Assembly (NCBI RefSeq): GCF_902726565.1
Contig: NZ_CACVAF010000003.1
Location: 372,001-436,000, forward strand
Reading direction: 5' to 3'
DNA length: 64,000 nucleotides
Source of the DNA: Yersinia vastinensis
GTDB taxonomy: Bacteria; Pseudomonadota; Gammaproteobacteria; Enterobacterales; Enterobacteriaceae
Shown here: positions 38,980 through 47,600 of the stretch, piece by piece
Layout: each line of letters starts with the position of its first letter
Position numbering within the stretch: position 1 is the first letter of the stretch
Program-made: the position numbers and the translations under genes
The notes under the pieces: generated by a model
What the model was told of the DNA's origin: nothing
Databases searched by the model: none
What the model saw: only the letters and a program-made list of their open reading frames with translations

Positions 38980-40074
38980 TCAGTTAAGGAAGGCCTGTCC
39001 TAAACTGTCAGCTACGATAATTGCGGCGTAAACACTGTCTGGTGTGACGGCAAATGGCATGTTGTGAATAGTTTCACCCTCTGCACAACTGGCTTCGGCA
39101 ACGGCACGAATTTTGCGCTCGATATCCTGCGAAACGCCCATTTCCGCCAAAGTAATAGGTAAACCCAGTTGCTGGCAGAATGAGAGCACGGTTTCAATCT
39201 CTTCCATGCTGCTGTTTTGCAATACCAACTGCGTTAGGGTGCCGAAAGCCACTTTTTCGCCATGGTATAAATGATGGCACTCTTCCAGCACAGTAAAACC
39301 GTTGTGAATAGCATGAGCTGCCGCCAAGCCACTGCTTTCAAAACCAATACCACTCAGATAGGTATTGGCTTCAATAATGCGCTCAACCGCTTCAGTCACC
39401 ACTCCCGCTTCTACCGCCAGCTTGGCTTTGTAACCCTCTGCCAGCAATGTTTCGTAGCATAAACGGGCCAGTGTGACCGCCGCTAAAGTTGACGCACCAC
39501 CCGCCATGCTAATGGCTTTGGCATCAAAACAGGCTTGCGCTTCAAAATAAGTAGATAGCGCATCCCCCATGCCAGCGACCAGCAAACGTACCGGCGCTTT
39601 AGCAATAATCGTGGTATCCATCAGCACGATGTCAGGATTTTTCGGGTAAATCAGATATTCAGCAAACTCACCTTGTTCAGTGTAAATCACCGACAGTGCG
39701 CTGGTTGGTGCATCGGTGGAGGCAATCGTCGGCACGACAACCACCGGGATATGCTGATAGTGAGCAATCGCTTTTGCTGTATCGAGCGTTTTCCCACCAC
39801 CAATACCAATCACCCCATTGCAATGGTGTTTCTTCAGCTCGACGGTCAGGCGCTCTATTTCCTGACGAGAACATTCACCATTAAAACGGCTGAAATGACT
39901 GTCCAACCCACTGGCTTGCAAACTTGAGCCGACGGTATCAGCTGTCAGCTTCATCACAAAATCATCAGCAATGATAAAATAGTTATTTGCCAGTAACTTA
40001 GCAAACTCACCAATGGATTGAAGTGCATTGGCACCTTGAATATATTTAGACGGAGATTGAATGACTTTCAGCAT
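38980..40074 (-). CDS. gldA: glycerol dehydrogenase GldA/DhaD
   Basis: NAD-dependent, metal-containing glycerol dehydrogenase of 364 residues that oxidises glycerol to dihydroxyacetone for DhaKLM. It shows the NAD-binding GIGGGKTLDTAKAIA and the zinc ligands in VAGMGDALSTYFE (Asp), AAAHAIHNGF (His) and HLYHGEKVAFG (His). First gene of gldA-dhaK-dhaL-dhaM, giving a complete anaerobic glycerol route through the PTS kinase. AGGAG precedes the ATG at 40074. Confidence 0.94.
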   Translation of the reverse strand: MLKVIQSPSKYIQGANALQSIGEFAKLLANNYFIIADDFVMKLTADTVGSSLQASGLDSHFSRFNGECSRQEIERLTVELKKHHCNGVIGIGGGKTLDTAKAIAHYQHIPVVVVPTIASTDAPTSALSVIYTEQGEFAEYLIYPKNPDIVLMDTTIIAKAPVRLLVAGMGDALSTYFEAQACFDAKAISMAGGASTLAAVTLARLCYETLLAEGYKAKLAVEAGVVTEAVERIIEANTYLSGIGFESSGLAAAHAIHNGFTVLEECHHLYHGEKVAFGTLTQLVLQNSSMEEIETVLSFCQQLGLPITLAEMGVSQDIERKIRAVAEASCAEGETIHNMPFAVTPDSVYAAIIVADSLGQAFLN

Positions 40075-40132
40075 ACCTTGCTCCTATAGCGTAAGAGATA
40101 ACATCATAATGAATAATTTTTAGGGTCAATTT

Positions 40133-40236
40133 GATGAAACTGGAACCACTATAAGCGCAAAAAACAAGCTGAAAATGGGTGGCGAAAACGTTCCATAATG
40201 AAACATCAATGACGGAATGAGGTTTCATATTGGAAC
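40133..40236 (-). promoter_or_regulatory. probable DhaR activation sites upstream of gldA
   Basis: GTTCCATAATGAAAC (40190-40204) and GTTTCATATTGGAAC (40222-40236) form a 15-bp inverted repeat (13 of 15 paired). A third related half, GAAACTGGAAC, is at 40136-40146. A TTGACC -35-like hexamer lies nearer to gldA on the minus strand. DhaR is the natural candidate regulator. Confidence 0.5.
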
Positions 40237-40260
40237 AATAAGGCTAACGTTTGGGAACAG

Positions 40261-40567
40261 GAAGAGAAGTAGCGCACAATTTGATTTTGTGTATGAGTTA
40301 ATATTACCGCCCCCAGTCGAGAGGATCCTCTGTAGCCCAATAATTTTCTTTCGTTGCCCTCTTAACATTAAAAATAAAACCTGACTAAATTACTTATTTT
40401 GTACATAGAAAAAATGTCAGAAGCATATAAAAAGAAACTCTTAAAAATTAAACTTAATATTGTATAAATTGAGAAAATCACTTAGCCTATTTTAGTCATT
40501 TATTCAAATCGACTAAAGTTAACTACTCAATAAAATTCAATCTAATAAACTCAATAGGATATTTATA
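40261..40567. other. AT-rich upstream region of the peptide cluster
   Basis: Gene-free stretch where the base composition becomes clearly AT-rich compared with the dha genes. It holds a palindrome AGAGGATCCTCT (40320-40331) and an inverted repeat TTTAGTC/GACTAAA with a 13-base spacer (40491-40497, 40511-40517). A TATAAA -10-like hexamer lies at 40463-40468. ACTCAATA-type short direct repeats lie at 40524-40557. It is a likely promoter/operator region for the downstream genes; no regulator gene is adjacent. Confidence 0.45.
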
Positions 40568-40645
40568 ATGAATAAAGTATCTATAGAACCAAGCCTTTCA
40601 TATCAATCTAATGATGCTTATACAGGCCCAGTCAATCCTGTGTAG
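40568..40645 (+). CDS. 25-residue candidate precursor peptide
   Basis: An ATG at 40568 with AGGA eight bases upstream opens a 25-codon frame ending in TAG. The peptide starts MNKVS, has a Ser/Tyr/Asn-rich middle and ends SNDAYTGPVNPV; it contains no Cys, Trp or Phe. It is hydrophilic, with no membrane segment, so it is not a leader-type toxin. It lies 69 bases before an operon of SagB-type oxidoreductase, carbamoyltransferase and MFS exporter. A hairpin lies between, which is a common layout for RiPP precursor genes. I infer the C-terminal part (AYTGPVNPV) is the core and Ser/Thr/Tyr/Asn side chains are modified. Not recognised from any known class; it could alternatively be a regulatory leader peptide. 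Confidence 0.55.
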   Translation: MNKVSIEPSLSYQSNDAYTGPVNPV

Positions 40646-40666
40646 CTATTACTTTTCATCTCAATT

Positions 40667-40689
40667 GGCAGTTAGACTGGCTGACTGCC
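40667..40689 (+). other. hairpin between peptide gene and enzyme genes
   Basis: GGCAGTTAG pairs with CTGACTGCC (one G-U pair) around a 5-base loop, 22 bases after the peptide stop. No T-run follows, so partial read-through or processing is expected. This would give excess peptide mRNA over enzyme mRNA. Confidence 0.55.
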
Positions 40690-40714
40690 ATACCTATGGA
40701 TAATTATAATAAAA

Positions 40715-41806
40715 ATGAAAACAACTGATCCTTTTATTTTTATAGCAATAATTAGTGGTAAATTAATTTTATGGGATTATAGACATCATAATCAATATGA
40801 GATAAATAGTGATTATATAAAAAGAATTAAAGAACTTGCTAATGGCGATAAATTTACTGATTCCTTAATAGATAAAAACATTATGGATAGTAAAATATTA
40901 GATGGAGATGATAGAGATATGTTTTATTGGGGTTGGGATTGCCTCTCAAAAATATTTCACATTGGAACTCAAGTTATCTTAGACAAAGGAATGGAATTAC
41001 CAACTGATGACAGTTATGAAGGCTATGTAAATTACTGTGCATCAATCGCAGATAAGATTCCTGAATTAGACTACCAACGCTCAGGTGAGACAATTCCATT
41101 ACCAAAGCCAGACAAGAATTTCTTATTTGATAAGAGGCTGATGGATACATTATTTGCGCGAAAGACTAGCAGAGAATTCAAAAGAGAAACAGTTTCATTG
41201 CAAGAAGTGGCCGAGGTTTTATTCTGGACCTTTGGTACCCCTCACGGTTCAAAGCGCACTGAAATGGAAGTTGCAGGACTAAAATCTATCGGTTATCGCC
41301 GCACCTCACCATCAGGAGGTTCCCTACAAACAAGTGAAGCTTATTTGGTTGCTTTAAATATAATTGGATTAGCATCAGGAATATATCACTATCAGTCTCA
41401 TAGACATGAATTGACGCTAGTCAGTACCGATATCAATGGGGAAAAATTAGGGAGCCTGCTTTGTGCCCAAATGTTTGCCAAAGACTTAGCTTTTGGTATT
41501 TTTATCACATCATGCTTTAAAAAGATGTGGTGGAAATACCCTCACTCCAGAGCCTATAGGGTCGCATTGTTTGATATAGGCTGCTTAGTTCAAACATTTC
41601 AACTAATCACCACTGCCATGCAGTTAGGCTCTTGGCCAACTGGCTATTTTTTGGATAGGGAAATAAATAAGCTACTTGGTGTAAATGAAGTTGAAGAATC
41701 TGTAATGTTCTTCTTAGGCGCGGGGCCAAGTTCGGGTTCCTCTTTTTCCCCTAAGTTGCTTGAAACTATAAAACGTCAAACTAGTCATGGGGAAAGTAAC
41801 CAATGA
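40715..41806 (+). CDS. SagB-type nitroreductase-fold dehydrogenase
   Basis: A 363-residue protein whose C-terminal ~215 residues match the SagB/McbC branch of FMN nitroreductases. RKTSREFKRETVSLQEVAEVLFW (~147-170, split here by description) begins the FMN-binding region. RRTSPSGGSLQTSEAYL (~193) is the RTSPSGG motif and GIYHYQSHRHEL follows. Family members oxidise azolines to azoles in microcin B17 and streptolysin S maturation. The ~140 N-terminal residues resemble those of long SagB-type proteins but I cannot name a domain. The start lacks a good ribosome binding site. The stop overlaps the next gene by four bases (ATGA). Its codon and base use is AT-rich, unlike the neighbours. No YcaO or ThiF partner is nearby, so the substrate is not an evident azoline. 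Confidence 0.8.
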   Translation: MKTTDPFIFIAIISGKLILWDYRHHNQYEINSDYIKRIKELANGDKFTDSLIDKNIMDSKILDGDDRDMFYWGWDCLSKIFHIGTQVILDKGMELPTDDSYEGYVNYCASIADKIPELDYQRSGETIPLPKPDKNFLFDKRLMDTLFARKTSREFKRETVSLQEVAEVLFWTFGTPHGSKRTEMEVAGLKSIGYRRTSPSGGSLQTSEAYLVALNIIGLASGIYHYQSHRHELTLVSTDINGEKLGSLLCAQMFAKDLAFGIFITSCFKKMWWKYPHSRAYRVALFDIGCLVQTFQLITTAMQLGSWPTGYFLDREINKLLGVNEVEESVMFFLGAGPSSGSSFSPKLLETIKRQTSHGESNQ

Positions 41807-43386
41807 AAATTTTATCATTTAAACCAGGGCATGATGGCAGTATTTCTTACATTAAAGATAGCAAGCTAATTTTCTCTCATGAAGCAGAAAAAGGCTCTGG
41901 ATTTCGTTATTGTAATATTACTACTGAGTGCATTATTGAAGCTCTATCAACTATTAATGATGCCCCAGATATTATTGCACTTAGTGGTTGGTCATCCGGT
42001 AATAATCCACATAATCATGATATTGGTGCCGGTTACTTTGGGCTAGAATTGACCAAGCCGGTGAAAATGAATTTTCTTAAACATGATGTGTTTTATTTTA
42101 CCTCTTCTCACGAACGTTCACATTTATTATGTGCCTATGGTATGTCACCTTTTCGCCAAGGAAAACCTTGCTATGCACTTATTTGGGAGGGACATATTGG
42201 TTCATTTTATTATATAGACCAACATGTTAGAATTAAAAAACTAGCTGATATTATTCCTGATATAGGTATTCGTTATGCTTTTTCATATGGCATTGCTGAT
42301 AAAACCTTTCCATTTACTCAAGGCCAAGTAAGGCTGGGTGATGCTGGTAAAATAATGGCTTTGGCGGCTTACTGTAACAGGGAGGAAATATCAGCTCAGG
42401 ATGATGAATTAATATCCTATTTATTATCAACACCATTGAGTTATGAAAAACTATGTAAGAATCAATTTGTAAAGTCACACCTATATAATATAGGCGTCGA
42501 AAGTGATGTTTTTAAGCAATTTACAGGGCATTTAACTGATGCAATATTTGCAAAATTTTATACCGAAGTTAAAAAAATAGTTAGTAAGAAATTACCATTA
42601 CTGATAAGTGGTGGTTGTGGTTTGAACTGTGATTGGAATAGTAAATGGCTAAATTGTGATTTATTTGATGATGTTTTCATCCCGCCCTGCACTAATGACT
42701 CTGGTTCTGCCATTGGTACAGCTATTGATGCACAATATTATTTTACAGGTAATGCTAAAATTGATTGGAGTGTTTACTGTGGCCAGATTTTCAATGATGA
42801 TGTGATTGATATTGTTGGGCTTAAATATGAAAAATTAGAATATCCTAATGTCGCTTATGCTCTGGCAAAAGGTGCTGTTATTGGTTGGGTTAATGGCAAA
42901 GCCGAAATTGGCCCAAGAGCATTAGGTAATAGATCAATATTGGCAGCACCATTTAGTAAAACCACATTAATGCGTTTAAATACTATAAAAAATAGAGAAT
43001 CATTTAGGCCAATTGCTCCAATTTGTTTGCAAAGTGATGCATTAAAATATTTTGATTTAAAGAAACCCAGCCCTCACATGCTATTTTTTTCTCATGTTTT
43101 AGATAGTTGCCTTCAAGCTATTACTCATGTTGATAGTTCATCCAGACCACAAACAGTTAATAGCGAGCAAAACAATAATATATATCAACTGATTTTAGCT
43201 TTTAAAAAAATAACAGACTATGGTGTGTTATGTAATACCTCACTCAATTTTAACGGAAAAGGCTTTATTAATAAAACAAGTGAGTTAGCAGAATATATGC
43301 AGCAAAGAGGGCTTGATGGTTTTGTTGTCAATGATCGGTTTTATACCAAAAAACATTCACATGAAAATAATAAGAAATCATTTTAA
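41803..43386 (+). CDS. NodU/CmcH/TobZ-family O-carbamoyltransferase
   Basis: A 527-residue two-domain carbamoyltransferase. The N-terminal Kae1-like/HSP70-fold part begins MKILSFKPGHDGSISYIKDS and has the metal-binding SSHERSHLLCAYG (~residue 105), a GGCGLNCDWNSKW motif (~270) and PPCTNDSGSAIGTAID (~297). The C-terminal domain (~360-520) has the signature NGKAEIGPRALGNRSILAA, then NRESFRPIAPIC and NTSLNFNGKGF. Family members form carbamoyl-adenylate from carbamoyl phosphate and ATP and transfer the carbamoyl group to a hydroxyl of a natural product. All key motifs look intact. Its overlap with both neighbours ties it to the SagB-like enzyme and exporter. Confidence 0.85.
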   Translation: MKILSFKPGHDGSISYIKDSKLIFSHEAEKGSGFRYCNITTECIIEALSTINDAPDIIALSGWSSGNNPHNHDIGAGYFGLELTKPVKMNFLKHDVFYFTSSHERSHLLCAYGMSPFRQGKPCYALIWEGHIGSFYYIDQHVRIKKLADIIPDIGIRYAFSYGIADKTFPFTQGQVRLGDAGKIMALAAYCNREEISAQDDELISYLLSTPLSYEKLCKNQFVKSHLYNIGVESDVFKQFTGHLTDAIFAKFYTEVKKIVSKKLPLLISGGCGLNCDWNSKWLNCDLFDDVFIPPCTNDSGSAIGTAIDAQYYFTGNAKIDWSVYCGQIFNDDVIDIVGLKYEKLEYPNVAYALAKGAVIGWVNGKAEIGPRALGNRSILAAPFSKTTLMRLNTIKNRESFRPIAPICLQSDALKYFDLKKPSPHMLFFSHVLDSCLQAITHVDSSSRPQTVNSEQNNNIYQLILAFKKITDYGVLCNTSLNFNGKGFINKTSELAEYMQQRGLDGFVVNDRFYTKKHSHENNKKSF

Positions 43387-44591
43387 TGCTAAAACTATTT
43401 CTTATAGCTGGATTCCCTTCTTTATTTTTATCCCGAATACTTAACTCTATCGCAGTTTGGGTTGATTTTACCCTTATATTCACTGTAATGAGTTTTCATT
43501 TTAATGCTCCGGCCTACCAGCTAGGGATAGCAGCGGCATTATATGGTTTTCCTGGATTATTATTAGGGCCATTTATTGGTCAACTGGCAGATAGATACTC
43601 GCCAGTGGTAATATTATTAACGAGTTCTTTTGGTCGATTTGCAACCTCTCTATGGCTTGCTACATCAACTCATCAGGAACTGTTTTTACTTGGAATTCTT
43701 CTAAAAGGAATCAGTAACTTAGGTGCAAGCCCTGCTGAGCAAATACTTATTAGGGAGTTATTAAATAAAGAACAAATATTACTTACTGTCGCACTTTGCA
43801 ATATTATTGATCAATGCATAAAAATCATTTCCCCACTATTTGTCTCTGCCATCTCTGCCATAGTAAATTTGCAAGGGGGGTTTTATTTAACCGCCGTTAT
43901 GGCGCTAATTACAGCATTACTATCTATAAGAATGGGCTTTATTATTGGATGGGTTAAAAAATCAATTATTGTCACAGAAACTCTACCTAACTTCAATCTA
44001 GTATATAATATCATTAGGAAAAGCTCTATATTGTTTTCTTCTTTCTACGTCGTTCTGGCCGCCTCACTTACATTGGGTTTATATGATTCCATTCTTTCTA
44101 TTTTATTAAGAAATCAGGGATTTGGCCCAGGTACATTTGGCATTATCGTGAGTAGCACCGCTGCTGGTGCTATTTTATCGGGCTTTTTATTCAAGAAAAT
44201 ATATGCATTATTTAGCAACCAATGGTTGATGATTTGTGGGCTTATTGGCTTCAGTGTCACTGTACTCAGTGCCGGTACTCTCTGTTTGATTTTTGATAAT
44301 CTCCATCTTTATATTTTCTGCACTATTTGGTTTATTAATGGTTTTTGTTATGCGTGTATTGTGATGTCATTTAGCATTGTTTTACAAAATGAAGCGCCCA
44401 CAAATATGTTAGGTGTCATTTCAACCAGTTGCCGCAGCGTACAATTAGCCACACTGGTTGCCGGCCCGGTTATCGGTTCCGGTGTTGCTCATTATATCGG
44501 CATCCCTATGACATTCGTTATCGCGGGCAGTACTGGCCTTGCGATAGCAGGATATTTATTATTTACCCCCCTAAAAAAGATCACCAAATAA
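43386..44591 (+). CDS. MFS transporter, probable product exporter
   Basis: A 401-residue major facilitator with about twelve membrane segments. The loop 2-3 motif A is GQLADRYSPV, followed by a basic loop. It resembles drug/siderophore exporters (EntS-like branch) rather than sugar importers. It starts at the last base of the carbamoyltransferase stop (TAATG overlap), so it is the terminal gene of the cluster. It most likely exports the modified peptide or small molecule and may give self-protection (inference). It is AT-rich like the two genes before it. Confidence 0.82.
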   Translation: MLKLFLIAGFPSLFLSRILNSIAVWVDFTLIFTVMSFHFNAPAYQLGIAAALYGFPGLLLGPFIGQLADRYSPVVILLTSSFGRFATSLWLATSTHQELFLLGILLKGISNLGASPAEQILIRELLNKEQILLTVALCNIIDQCIKIISPLFVSAISAIVNLQGGFYLTAVMALITALLSIRMGFIIGWVKKSIIVTETLPNFNLVYNIIRKSSILFSSFYVVLAASLTLGLYDSILSILLRNQGFGPGTFGIIVSSTAAGAILSGFLFKKIYALFSNQWLMICGLIGFSVTVLSAGTLCLIFDNLHLYIFCTIWFINGFCYACIVMSFSIVLQNEAPTNMLGVISTSCRSVQLATLVAGPVIGSGVAHYIGIPMTFVIAGSTGLAIAGYLLFTPLKKITK

Positions 44592-44594
44592 AAA

Positions 44595-44619
44595 AGCAGC
44601 CCCGAGAATTGGGGCTGCT
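44595..44619 (-). terminator. terminator between the peptide cluster and the RND operon
   Basis: AGCAGCCCC and GGGGCTGCT form a perfect 9-bp stem with a 7-base loop. On the minus strand it is followed by TTTTTATTT, a classical intrinsic terminator for the RND operon. On the plus strand it lies just past the MFS stop but has no T-run. Confidence 0.8.
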
Positions 44620-44654
44620 GAGATCACGGCAAACTGAGTGATACGATGAGCGAG

Positions 44655-47600
44655 TTATTCACTCACCGGCTCATCATGCACTTTTTCTTTAGGTTCTGGG
44701 TTCATACTGCTGTAAATCACTGGCAAGACCAGTAATGTCAACACGGTGGCGAAGCCCAGACCGAACATAATAACCACCGCCATACTCTGGAAGAAGGCAT
44801 CACTCAACAGCGGTGCCAGCCCCAGAACAGTGGTAAATGCTGTTAGCATAATGGGCCGTAGACGGGCGGTAGAAGCATCGATAATCGCTTCACGTAGCGG
44901 TTTTTCCTGCCGCTGCAAACCGATCTCTTCAACCAATACAATACCGTTACGAATCAACATCCCACTCAAACTTAATAGCCCTAATAGGGCCATAAAGCCG
45001 AACGGAATACCCGTCAATAAGAAGCCCACTGTCACTCCGATCAACGCCAATGGCACTGTCAGCCAAATAGCCAGCGCATTGCGTACAGAGCTGAACATCA
45101 GCACCGTGACCACGAACATAATCAAGAAGGCGATAGGTAGACTGATGAAAATACCTCGTTGAGCTTCCTTGGTACTTTCGTAGTCGCCACCCCATTCCAG
45201 TTCATACCCGCGTGGTAACTGCACGGCTTCCACTCCCGGTCTAATGCGTCGCAATAGCTCCGCCGAGGTCTCGCCACCCTGTTGAGTCGGATCCGTTTGC
45301 ACCGTCAGTGTGCGCTTACGATCCAGACGCATAATCAGTGGATCTTCCCACTCGGTTTCAAAACTGGTCACAACGTTATCAATCGGGATAAAGGCTTGGC
45401 GTGCCTGGCTCCACACCATCACGTCATTAAGACGTTCTGCATTAAGCCGCTCAGAATCTGGGGTGCGTAACACAATCGGCATTAGGCGTGTGCCATCACG
45501 GTACAGCCCCACCGGTAGACCACCAAAACTCATGCGCAACGTGCCATCTACCTCACGTTTATCGACACCCAGTTCACGGCCCAAATAATCAGAGAATTGT
45601 GGCCGGATCATTTTGCTACGATCTTGCCAGTCATGCCTTGCACCATCGGCCATCGGATCAGCAATGATCGCCTTTTCCGCTTGTGCGGCCAGTGAACGCA
45701 GAACCTCTGGATCCGGACCAATAAAACGAGCTTCGATGGAACTGTTGTTTGACGGCCCAAACATGATGCGTTTTATCTGCGCATCAACTTGCGGGTATTC
45801 GTCATGCATGTAGGATTCGATTTCATCAATCAGGCCCGGTATTTGGTCAAGCTGCTCAGTACGAACCATCACCTGCGCATAGTTAGGATAATGACGCTGG
45901 GCATTGTAGGTCAGCATAAAGCGCATTGCGCCCTGACCAATCGTCGCCATGGTGTCAGCCACCCCTTCTTGCTGTTTGATATACTGCTCAACTTTATTTG
46001 CCACCCCTTCGGTATAACTGATATCTGTCCCATAAGGCAGCCAAATATCAACAAAGAAGATAGGGGTGTTTGAGGGGGGGAAGAAGCTCTGGCGCACATT
46101 GCCAAACCCAACCACCGATGCCGCCAACAGGGCTGCCAGCAGTACCAAAGTGATGGTGCGGTGTTGCAGTAATTTGCCTAAAACCACACGATAATAACGG
46201 AACAACCAACCATCATAAGGTTGCTTGGCTGGCTTATCCGCATCGGCTTGTACTGGCTTCTGATTCTCAAATGCCCACTTGGCAAAGACCGGCGTCAGTG
46301 TCAGTGCGGTGAACCAACTCAACATCAGCGAAATCAGTAATACCTGGAATAAGGATTTACAGTATTCACCGGTGGCATCATTGGACAGGCCGATTGGCGC
46401 AAAAGCCAGAATAGCAATGATAGTGGCCCCCAATAATGGCATCATTGAGCGCTTGACCACATTGCTGATAGCCGTAAAGATATTTTCGCCGCGCTGGCGG
46501 CCTACCACTATCCCTTCCACCACCACAATGGCGTTATCTACCAACATACTGAGCGCGATAATTAACGCGCCTAACGATACGCGCTGTAGCTCGATATTAA
46601 ACAGCCACATAATCAGCAGTGTGCCGAGAACATTAAGTGCCAGAGAAATGGCGATAACTACACCACTGCGGACCCCCATAAAAATCAGCAGGGTGACAAC
46701 AACAATTAACAATGCCAGCAAGAAGTTCAGGATAAAGCCGTTAACTGCCCCCTCAACTTCATGGGATTGGTCATAAAACACATTAATGTGCATGCCTGAT
46801 GGACGTTCGCCTTCAAGCTGTGCCAGCCGAGCTTTAATGGCATTACCCACATTGACAACGTTGACGTTCGGGGCAAATGAGATCCCCAATGCCAACGCTG
46901 GCTTACCATTAGCGCGATAAATGTTGGTGGGTGAATGACCAAAGCCCTGTGTCACCGTCGCGATGTCACGAAGATAGACACTTTTCGGGCTGCCGGGCTG
47001 GCTGACCAATAAATTCCCCAACTCTTGTACGCTTTGGAATTCACCAGTGGGATGCAAACGAATCGACTCGCTGCCCACCTGTAACTGACCAGCATCAGAC
47101 ACCACATTCTGACGACTCAGTAAGTCGGACAATTGCTGCGGTGTAATGCCAGCGGCCGTCATTTGGGCGCGGGAAATCTCTACCTGCACTTCTTCTGGCA
47201 GAATACCGACAATCCCCACTTTCCCAACCCCGGGCACCAAGACCAATTCACGCCGCAATTGTTCGGCAAAATTGCGTAAATCCTGGTTACTGTAGCCATC
47301 GCCCGTGAGCGAGAAGAAGAACCCATACACGTCGCCAAAGTCGTCGTTGACCATTGGGGCACTCGCCCCCGGCGGTAAGCGCACACTGTTGTCGTTAATT
47401 TTACGCCGCAACTCATCCCAGATTTGCGGTAACTCATTCGCGCCATATTGTGCGCGAATATTGATAGTTATTTGCGATAAACCGGCACTGGAAATCGACG
47501 TCACATCATCTACATAGGAGAGTTCTTGAATAGCATTCTCCAGAGGTAACGTCACTTCCTCCTCAACCTGCTGCGCCGATGCACCATCATAGCGGGTCAC

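Follow-up and report, generated by a model that had tools for sequence, protein, structure and literature searches.

A candidate YcaO-less RiPP-like operon in Yersinia vastinensis belongs to a family that swaps its tailoring enzymes

Organization of the island

We analysed a 64,000-nucleotide stretch of the Yersinia vastinensis genome (contig NZ_CACVAF010000003.1, positions 372,001 to 436,000; hereafter the window) and concentrated on an island of four plus-strand genes flanked by gldA, which is part of the dha cluster, and by an RND gene of opposite orientation. The genes encode a 25-residue peptide, a SagB-type dehydrogenase, a NodU/TobZ-type carbamoyltransferase and a major facilitator superfamily (MFS) transporter, and may together make a ribosomally synthesized and post-translationally modified peptide (RiPP). 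The features, numbered within the window, are as follows.

About 40278–44585: AT-rich inserted segment, delimited by blastn against the empty site in genome G016 (locus L211) and by the GC profile
40556–40559, plus strand: AGGA, Shine–Dalgarno-like, 8 nt ahead of the peptide ATG
40568–40645, plus strand: putative gene for the precursor peptide (25 aa), MNKVSIEPSLSYQSNDAYTGPVNPV; the N-terminus is that of the family and SNDAY is residues 14–18
40666–40690, plus strand: hairpin in the spacer between the peptide and SagB genes; fold z −2.9, stem kept in five copies from the genus
40715–41806, plus strand: SagB-type flavin dehydrogenase, 363 aa (PF00881, TIGR03605)
41803–43386, plus strand: NodU/TobZ-type carbamoyltransferase, 527 aa (PF16861, PF02543); 4-base overlap with the SagB gene
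43386–44591, plus strand: MFS transporter, 401 aa, presumed exporter (PF07690); 1-base overlap with the carbamoyltransferase gene

These features agree with the first-pass annotation of the sequence, which had described four same-strand genes overlapping by 4 and 1 bases, a ribosome binding site belonging to the 25-codon frame itself, a hairpin downstream of that frame and an AT-rich composition relative to the flanks. The GC content was 0.31–0.39 across 40–44 kb and 0.43 in 44–45 kb, compared to 0.49–0.53 in the four 1-kb blocks before the island and 0.50–0.52 in the two after it. The island itself is real, although the start originally given to it, 40261, falls slightly outside the inserted segment. 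An Rfam search of 39800–45000 gave no match.

The island is an insertion of ∼4.3 kb between gldA and the RND gene. When the window was compared with the empty site in G016, the gldA side matched over 204 bases at 91% identity and the RND side over 116 bases at 100%, and in G016 these two matches are only 63 bases apart. SagB was present in five of the 25 Yersinia genomes searched. At the 23 places with a dha-type gldA, the RND gene lay within 1.5 kb in 17 (i.e. an empty site), SagB was present in four and neither was found in two; in the fifth carrier, G022, no gldA passed the search threshold. A scan of genome contigs found matches only in Y. frederiksenii, Y. thracica and Allorhizobium sonneratiae. 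There was no island match in E. coli genomes (blastn, 3941-base query) or in plasmids (megablast, 4701-base query).

Conservation of the peptide gene

The peptide frame is encoded in all five Yersinia copies of the island. Relative to the window peptide there is one residue change in Y. frederiksenii and three in each of the other three copies. Of the eight nucleotides at which the Y. frederiksenii peptide gene departs from that of the window, seven are at third codon positions, and in each of the four relatives there are fewer residue changes than under random mutation of equal size (P = 0.001, 0.0024, 0.0036 and 0.009). Because it is kept in every copy, with a third-position bias and few residue changes, the tiny frame is more than a chance occurrence; on the strength of these sequence comparisons, the 25-codon frame at 40568–40645 is a real gene. 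Its product contains no cysteine and has a single lysine, at position 3, outside the presumed core.

The hairpin that follows the peptide gene has a folding energy of −17.5 kcal/mol, and its stem is retained in all five genus copies, G-U pairs having replaced some G-C and A-U pairs. As a U tract is missing in Yersinia, it is not a classical terminator.

A wider family of SagB loci with tiny upstream genes

We used SagB alone to find related loci. A tblastn search of plasmids with SagB found a Maritalea plasmid carrying SagB, an MFS gene and a 25-codon frame upstream, and A. sonneratiae shares this gene order and encodes a 25-mer of similar sequence. When 398 genomes of the phylum were next searched with a profile, full-length SagB relatives turned up in a genus of the same class, g393, which from its gene content may be Pseudomonas. 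SagB matches at 1e-40 or better were present in 91 of 298 g393 genomes, at least one of which (G1177) owed its match solely to a different SagB protein of greater length. No peptide served as a query at any of these sites (Maritalea, Allorhizobium or g393).

For further comparison we took 69 loci: the window, L009, L037, L043, L110–L114 and 60 chosen from part of the g393 list. Many of these are near-identical. The damaged Yersinia copies (G010, G017 and G022) were left out, as were more distant SagB loci (L072–L078, L080–L085 and L116–L119); in L072–L077, L081–L085 and L116–L119 the matches cover mainly the C-terminal domain.

The first-pass annotation had staked its proposal on homologous loci keeping a conserved short frame, and this they do. 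A tiny frame led by a ribosome binding site is found directly upstream of SagB in 66 of the 69 loci (64 detected by one script, and L043 and L113 by reading), the exceptions being L114, L165 and L168. An encoded candidate precursor is conserved beside modifying enzymes, as expected of a RiPP, both here and in the five Yersinia copies. The MFS gene is downstream of SagB in 67 loci; it is missing from L114 and from L155, which is cut by the end of its contig. Most of the tiny peptides share the N-terminus M-[KN]-x-[IV]-x-[LIM]-E.

To set these frames against a background, we looked for an ATG frame of 18–65 codons led by a Shine–Dalgarno sequence within 420 bases before SagB. Such a frame was present in 65 of 68 loci, compared to 28.8% of 1360 dinucleotide shuffles. 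Adding the N-terminal motif gave 63 of 68 loci compared to 1.8% of shuffles, with the motif chosen after the peptides had been seen and the loci being related, so that the trials are not independent. Hairpins are also common in the family: the fold z was below −2, relative to mononucleotide shuffles, in 50 of 61 distinct peptide–SagB spacers, and the hairpin sequences vary between lineages.

Other arrangements of SagB-like genes were also noted. On a Streptomyces plasmid (L039, 3151–7936) a 33-codon frame is accompanied by radical SAM, methyltransferase, SagB and MFS genes, and its C-terminus, LDLNGNC, is similar to the ends of the peptides from Maritalea and Allorhizobium (LDVNGVC and FDSNGIC). 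In a tumour-plasmid record of Rhizobium rhododendri (L080, 4851–8282), SagB, a 355-aa gene and an MFS gene stand in a row. L081 (G211), from another genus of the same family, has two tandem SagB-like matches of 24–28% identity with internal stops.

The core motif changes with the tailoring enzyme

The enzyme encoded in the middle of the operon differs between loci. Across the 69 it is AurF-like in 54 and a carbamoyltransferase in seven; eight loci have neither and none has both. Where a peptide is present, the motif SN[DN]AY occurs in 7/7 carbamoyltransferase loci, 0/52 AurF loci and 0/7 loci with neither enzyme. Conversely, [ILM]AN occurs in 52/52 AurF loci, 0/7 carbamoyltransferase loci and 1/7 loci with neither, and this last case (L155) was counted there only since its contig ends. 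A conserved C-terminus had been expected for the short frames; instead, it is the N-terminus that is shared and an internal motif that tracks the tailoring enzyme. A conserved leader with a core that varies with the tailoring enzyme, as in RiPPs, was seen over 56 distinct peptides, with only three distinct carbamoyl lineages.

In two loci the AurF-like protein was matched to PF11583 (4.4e-16 and 7.4e-19), but its score falls far short of the AurF equivalog (60.6 bits, cut-off 620). For 41 AurF-type peptide genes of 23 codons, the mean pairwise differences at codon positions 1, 2 and 3 were 4.37, 2.96 and 7.57. In L110 and similar loci (e.g. L111 and L168) the AurF-type operon is often at a fixed g393 site, beside ilvD in several; an ilvD annotation covers that part of the L110 match.

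Six carbamoyl-type peptides were aligned, and M1, L10, S14, N15, A17 and Y18 are invariant in all of them. Peptides of this type reach 55–58 aa, with SNDAY inside. Two of the loci, L161 and L163, have an additional gene for a tetratricopeptide repeat (TPR)-methyltransferase. We also examined a human faecal record labelled Bacteriophage sp. (L237, MT837218, 1–7411), which proved to be a bacterial stretch; it holds a carbamoyl-type locus (peptide, SagB, carbamoyltransferase and MFS) nearly the same as L160 and ends in a class II aldolase-like frame.

The SagB-type enzyme and the missing YcaO

The window SagB protein matches PF00881 (4.8e-17) and scores above the cut-off of TIGR03605, the SagB family peptide dehydrogenase domain (120.8 bits, cut-off 78.4), and below that of TIGR04511, SagB_rel_DH_2 (127.1 bits, cut-off 240). 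R149, R153 and W273-K274-Y275 are invariant in all 19 aligned SagB members. The WKY segment aligns with the azoline oxidase CyaGox, and the PDB matches include McbC (6gos), CyaGox (5lq4) and BmdC (7ly5); in azoline oxidases of this kind, Lys-Tyr is the catalytic pair. The protein is thus likely to be a working flavin dehydrogenase. A PDB match of its N-terminus to an enterotoxin (E 0.09) was at chance level and was discarded.

The first-pass annotation had remarked on the lack of a cyclodehydratase, and a search of 10 genomes for YcaO (PF02624) found none near the locus, the matches being on another contig or more than 1 Mb away. YcaO is present elsewhere in nine of the 10 genomes. None was found in G1359, which has a carbamoyl-type locus and is 99% complete. 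The single YcaO of G000 and that of G019 match the full model and are presumably of the housekeeping type. As there is no cyclodehydratase to make the usual substrate of SagB, direct dehydrogenation of the peptide is the simplest reading.

The carbamoyltransferase, the transporter and their relatives

Both NodU/TobZ domains of the carbamoyltransferase pass the Pfam cut-offs (PF16861, 1.2e-52, 178.4 bits, cut-off 27; PF02543, 8.1e-24, 85.1 bits, cut-off 24), and the protein matches NovN, TobZ and GdmN chains in the PDB. It is well short of NodU proper (NF041651, 252 bits against 1000). The transporter matches PF07690 at 2.8e-24.

Unrelated neighbours in other genomes had been named in advance as a point that would count against the first-pass proposal. 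Relatives of the carbamoyltransferase at about 48–53% identity do have such neighbours, but the set of peptide, SagB, carbamoyltransferase and MFS genes recurs in five genomes of another genus. The relative in Streptomyces tendae occurs with non-ribosomal peptide synthetase (NRPS) genes. On a Salmonella plasmid (L068, 4995–10532), a carbamoyltransferase 53% identical to that of the window, annotated as two genes, is found with thymidylate synthase, ITPase, amidohydrolase and MFS genes, and the product there is perhaps a nucleoside. In G016 (L025, 5383–6996) a carbamoyltransferase of 50% identity lies beside glycosyltransferase- and glycosidase-like genes, and G023 (L026, 4761–5291) has only a fragment of it, near transposase-like frames.

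Most Yersinia genomes encode a second carbamoyltransferase of about 575 aa, with 36–38% identity over the C-terminal half (e.g. L019, 601–2322). The next gene in L019 is glycosyltransferase-like, and in several genomes this second enzyme is encoded no more than about 10 kb from where the island inserts. No match to it was seen in the window genome. A search of 371 genomes of the order at 1e-140 added a single carbamoyltransferase, that of G1731, whose surroundings are glycan-like and lack SagB.

A model for the operon, and its alternatives

Judged by its recurrence across genomes, the operon is real and conserved, and it has relatives among which the tailoring enzymes are exchanged. We favour, with a probability of about 0.72, a YcaO-less RiPP-like operon whose peptide would be dehydrogenated by SagB and modified at Ser or Tyr of SN[DN]AY by the carbamoyltransferase, the MFS protein then exporting the product. 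The 25-aa frame is very probably the precursor, in which the shared N-terminal motif would be the recognition part and the segment with SN[DN]AY the core. The hairpin after its gene, given its position and conservation, may allow more precursor than enzyme to be made. The SagB-type flavoenzyme, which every locus has, would dehydrogenate the core directly rather than an azoline, and we are fairly confident that the peptide is its substrate. The carbamoyltransferase would form carbamoyl-AMP from carbamoyl phosphate and ATP and pass the carbamoyl group to Ser or Tyr. The most promising acceptor is Ser14 or Tyr18, because S14, N15, A17 and Y18 are all invariant in the six aligned peptides, and we lean towards placing the carbamoyl on this motif. 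The MFS protein probably exports the product, which host peptidases would trim, as the gene layout suggests. In the sister operons an AurF-like oxygenase would replace the carbamoyltransferase and the core motif would change along with it.

The tiny frame could instead be a regulatory leader, controlling by translation-dependent attenuation through the hairpin a set of enzymes that make an unrelated small molecule. A short frame and a hairpin ahead of a biosynthetic gene are the usual layout of a leader peptide, and the NRPS, Salmonella plasmid and glycosyltransferase/glycosidase-like settings of the carbamoyltransferase relatives are not RiPP clusters. However, it is the amino-acid sequence that is conserved, and a core that tracks the tailoring enzyme is needless for attenuation. 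The hairpin differs in sequence between lineages and lacks a U tract in Yersinia, and a peptide of 55–58 aa with an internal SNDAY does not fit a leader well. We consider this explanation unlikely. An azole cluster of the thiazole/oxazole-modified microcin (TOMM) or linear azol(in)e-containing peptide (LAP) kind, degenerate through loss of its own YcaO and served by an unlinked one, would account for a SagB from the azoline-oxidase superfamily and for the YcaO found elsewhere in nine of 10 genomes. The Yersinia peptide has no cysteine, though, G1359 shows no YcaO at all, and the YcaO-free layout is family-wide and not a single loss; this reading is very improbable. Hardly more probable is that the peptide acts as a scaffold or carrier, on whose end a small product is built by tRNA- or ATP-dependent extension and then released, as pearlins are made. 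Very short precursors without a dedicated protease would suit such a role, as would tailoring enzymes of small-molecule type (AurF-like, NodU-like and methyltransferase). Set against this, no ligase, LanB-like or ATP-grasp genes were found in the operons whose genes were scanned, and the conserved core of the carbamoyl type is internal rather than terminal.

Several observations weigh against the peptide-modification model that we prefer. The operon has no regulator and, as the first-pass annotation had already stated, no protease or immunity gene. Neither Pfam nor the PDB gave a match to a RiPP recognition element in the SagB N-terminus, nor did this region match a (shallow) PqqD profile; an AlphaFold2 model of SagB, built from a three-row alignment, reached a pLDDT (predicted local distance difference test) of 35.9. 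SagB and the carbamoyltransferase are broken by stops or split frames in three of the five Yersinia carriers (G010, G017 and G022) and open in the window and Y. frederiksenii (G019) copies, so the island is dispensable. Among the carbamoyl-type loci, L163 has a short carbamoyltransferase (384 aa) with part of its N-domain gone and L164 a short SagB frame (about 300 aa). The seven loci of this type also represent only three distinct lineages. In a SagB tree, which leaves out the seven of 69 loci with a SagB frame below 325 aa, they form three well-separated pairs, with a single origin in 44% of bootstrap trees. The link between motif and enzyme is therefore complete and yet drawn from few independent events, possibly one.

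A broader proposal, to which we give even odds, is that these loci form a new class of RiPP, frequent in one genus of the Gammaproteobacteria and with precursors of 21–25 residues at their shortest. Here an azoline-free SagB would oxidize the peptide first, for example by α,β-desaturation at or near the conserved Asn, and an exchangeable carbamoyltransferase (on SN[DN]AY) or AurF-like oxygenase (on [ILM]AN) would follow. If true, this would be a widespread peptide-modifying family that gene finders are apt to miss, its precursors being only 21–25 codons long, and a case of a SagB enzyme working without a cyclodehydratase. The joint swap of core motif and tailoring enzyme would amount to a natural experiment, with specificity testable on short synthetic peptides.

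Comparison with known systems

RiPPs are a known kind of product; neither this combination of enzymes nor the joint exchange of core motif and tailoring enzyme appears to have been described in the literature searched. We found no description of a peptide operon with SagB and a carbamoyltransferase, in Yersinia or elsewhere, though an earlier one is possible as most subscription papers were outside the search. Among the papers listed none combined AurF with SagB, and no paper was found that combined AurF with a nitroreductase and a precursor peptide.

In overall plan the operon recalls those of pantocin A and microcin C, which join a precursor that is very short to one or two enzymes plus an exporter of the MFS type; the enzyme of that class is ThiF-like, not SagB. 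The nearest named SagB system without a heterocyclase name is TIGR04509/TIGR04510/TIGR04511 (mod_pep_cyc and SagB_rel_DH_2), of which TIGR04509 is, we assume, the precursor. All 19 aligned SagB members match TIGR04511, named by NCBIfam a putative peptide maturation dehydrogenase, below the cut-off or at an unknown margin. A genuine TIGR04510/TIGR04511 pair, in L074, scores 998 and 454 bits, compared to 127 for the window SagB, and the family loci carry MFS with AurF or carbamoyltransferase genes, the TIGR04510 cyclase not being seen in them. The TOMM/LAP enzymes McbC and SagB belong to the same flavoenzyme superfamily, but the family loci have no YcaO or docking protein nearby, and the 25-aa precursor lacks cysteine.

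A cluster from Pseudomonas, in which the precursor has 85 aa and the SagB-type protein 650 aa (PMC7726476), is a different and larger system. Carbamoyltransferases have precedent in RiPP biosynthesis, according to a review on RiPP recognition elements (PMC12710340). Crocagin has a 21-aa precursor with a tiny core, and its cluster includes the carbamoyltransferase CgnI and transport proteins; its core is built by a dioxygenase with CgnB and CgnE, and the account makes no mention of the word SagB (PMC10070186). Beyond its four genes the window operon offers no candidate for CgnB, CgnC or CgnE. In the std cluster of Streptomyces thermodiastaticus, which also has an MFS gene, a NodU-like enzyme reportedly carbamoylates a lysine of the precursor; this enzyme is fused to a peptidase, YcaO–TfuA and MNIO are present, and SagB is not among the genes listed in the preprint (PMC13174530). 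The acceptor in the std system is a lysine side chain; the one lysine of the Yersinia peptide lies outside the core.

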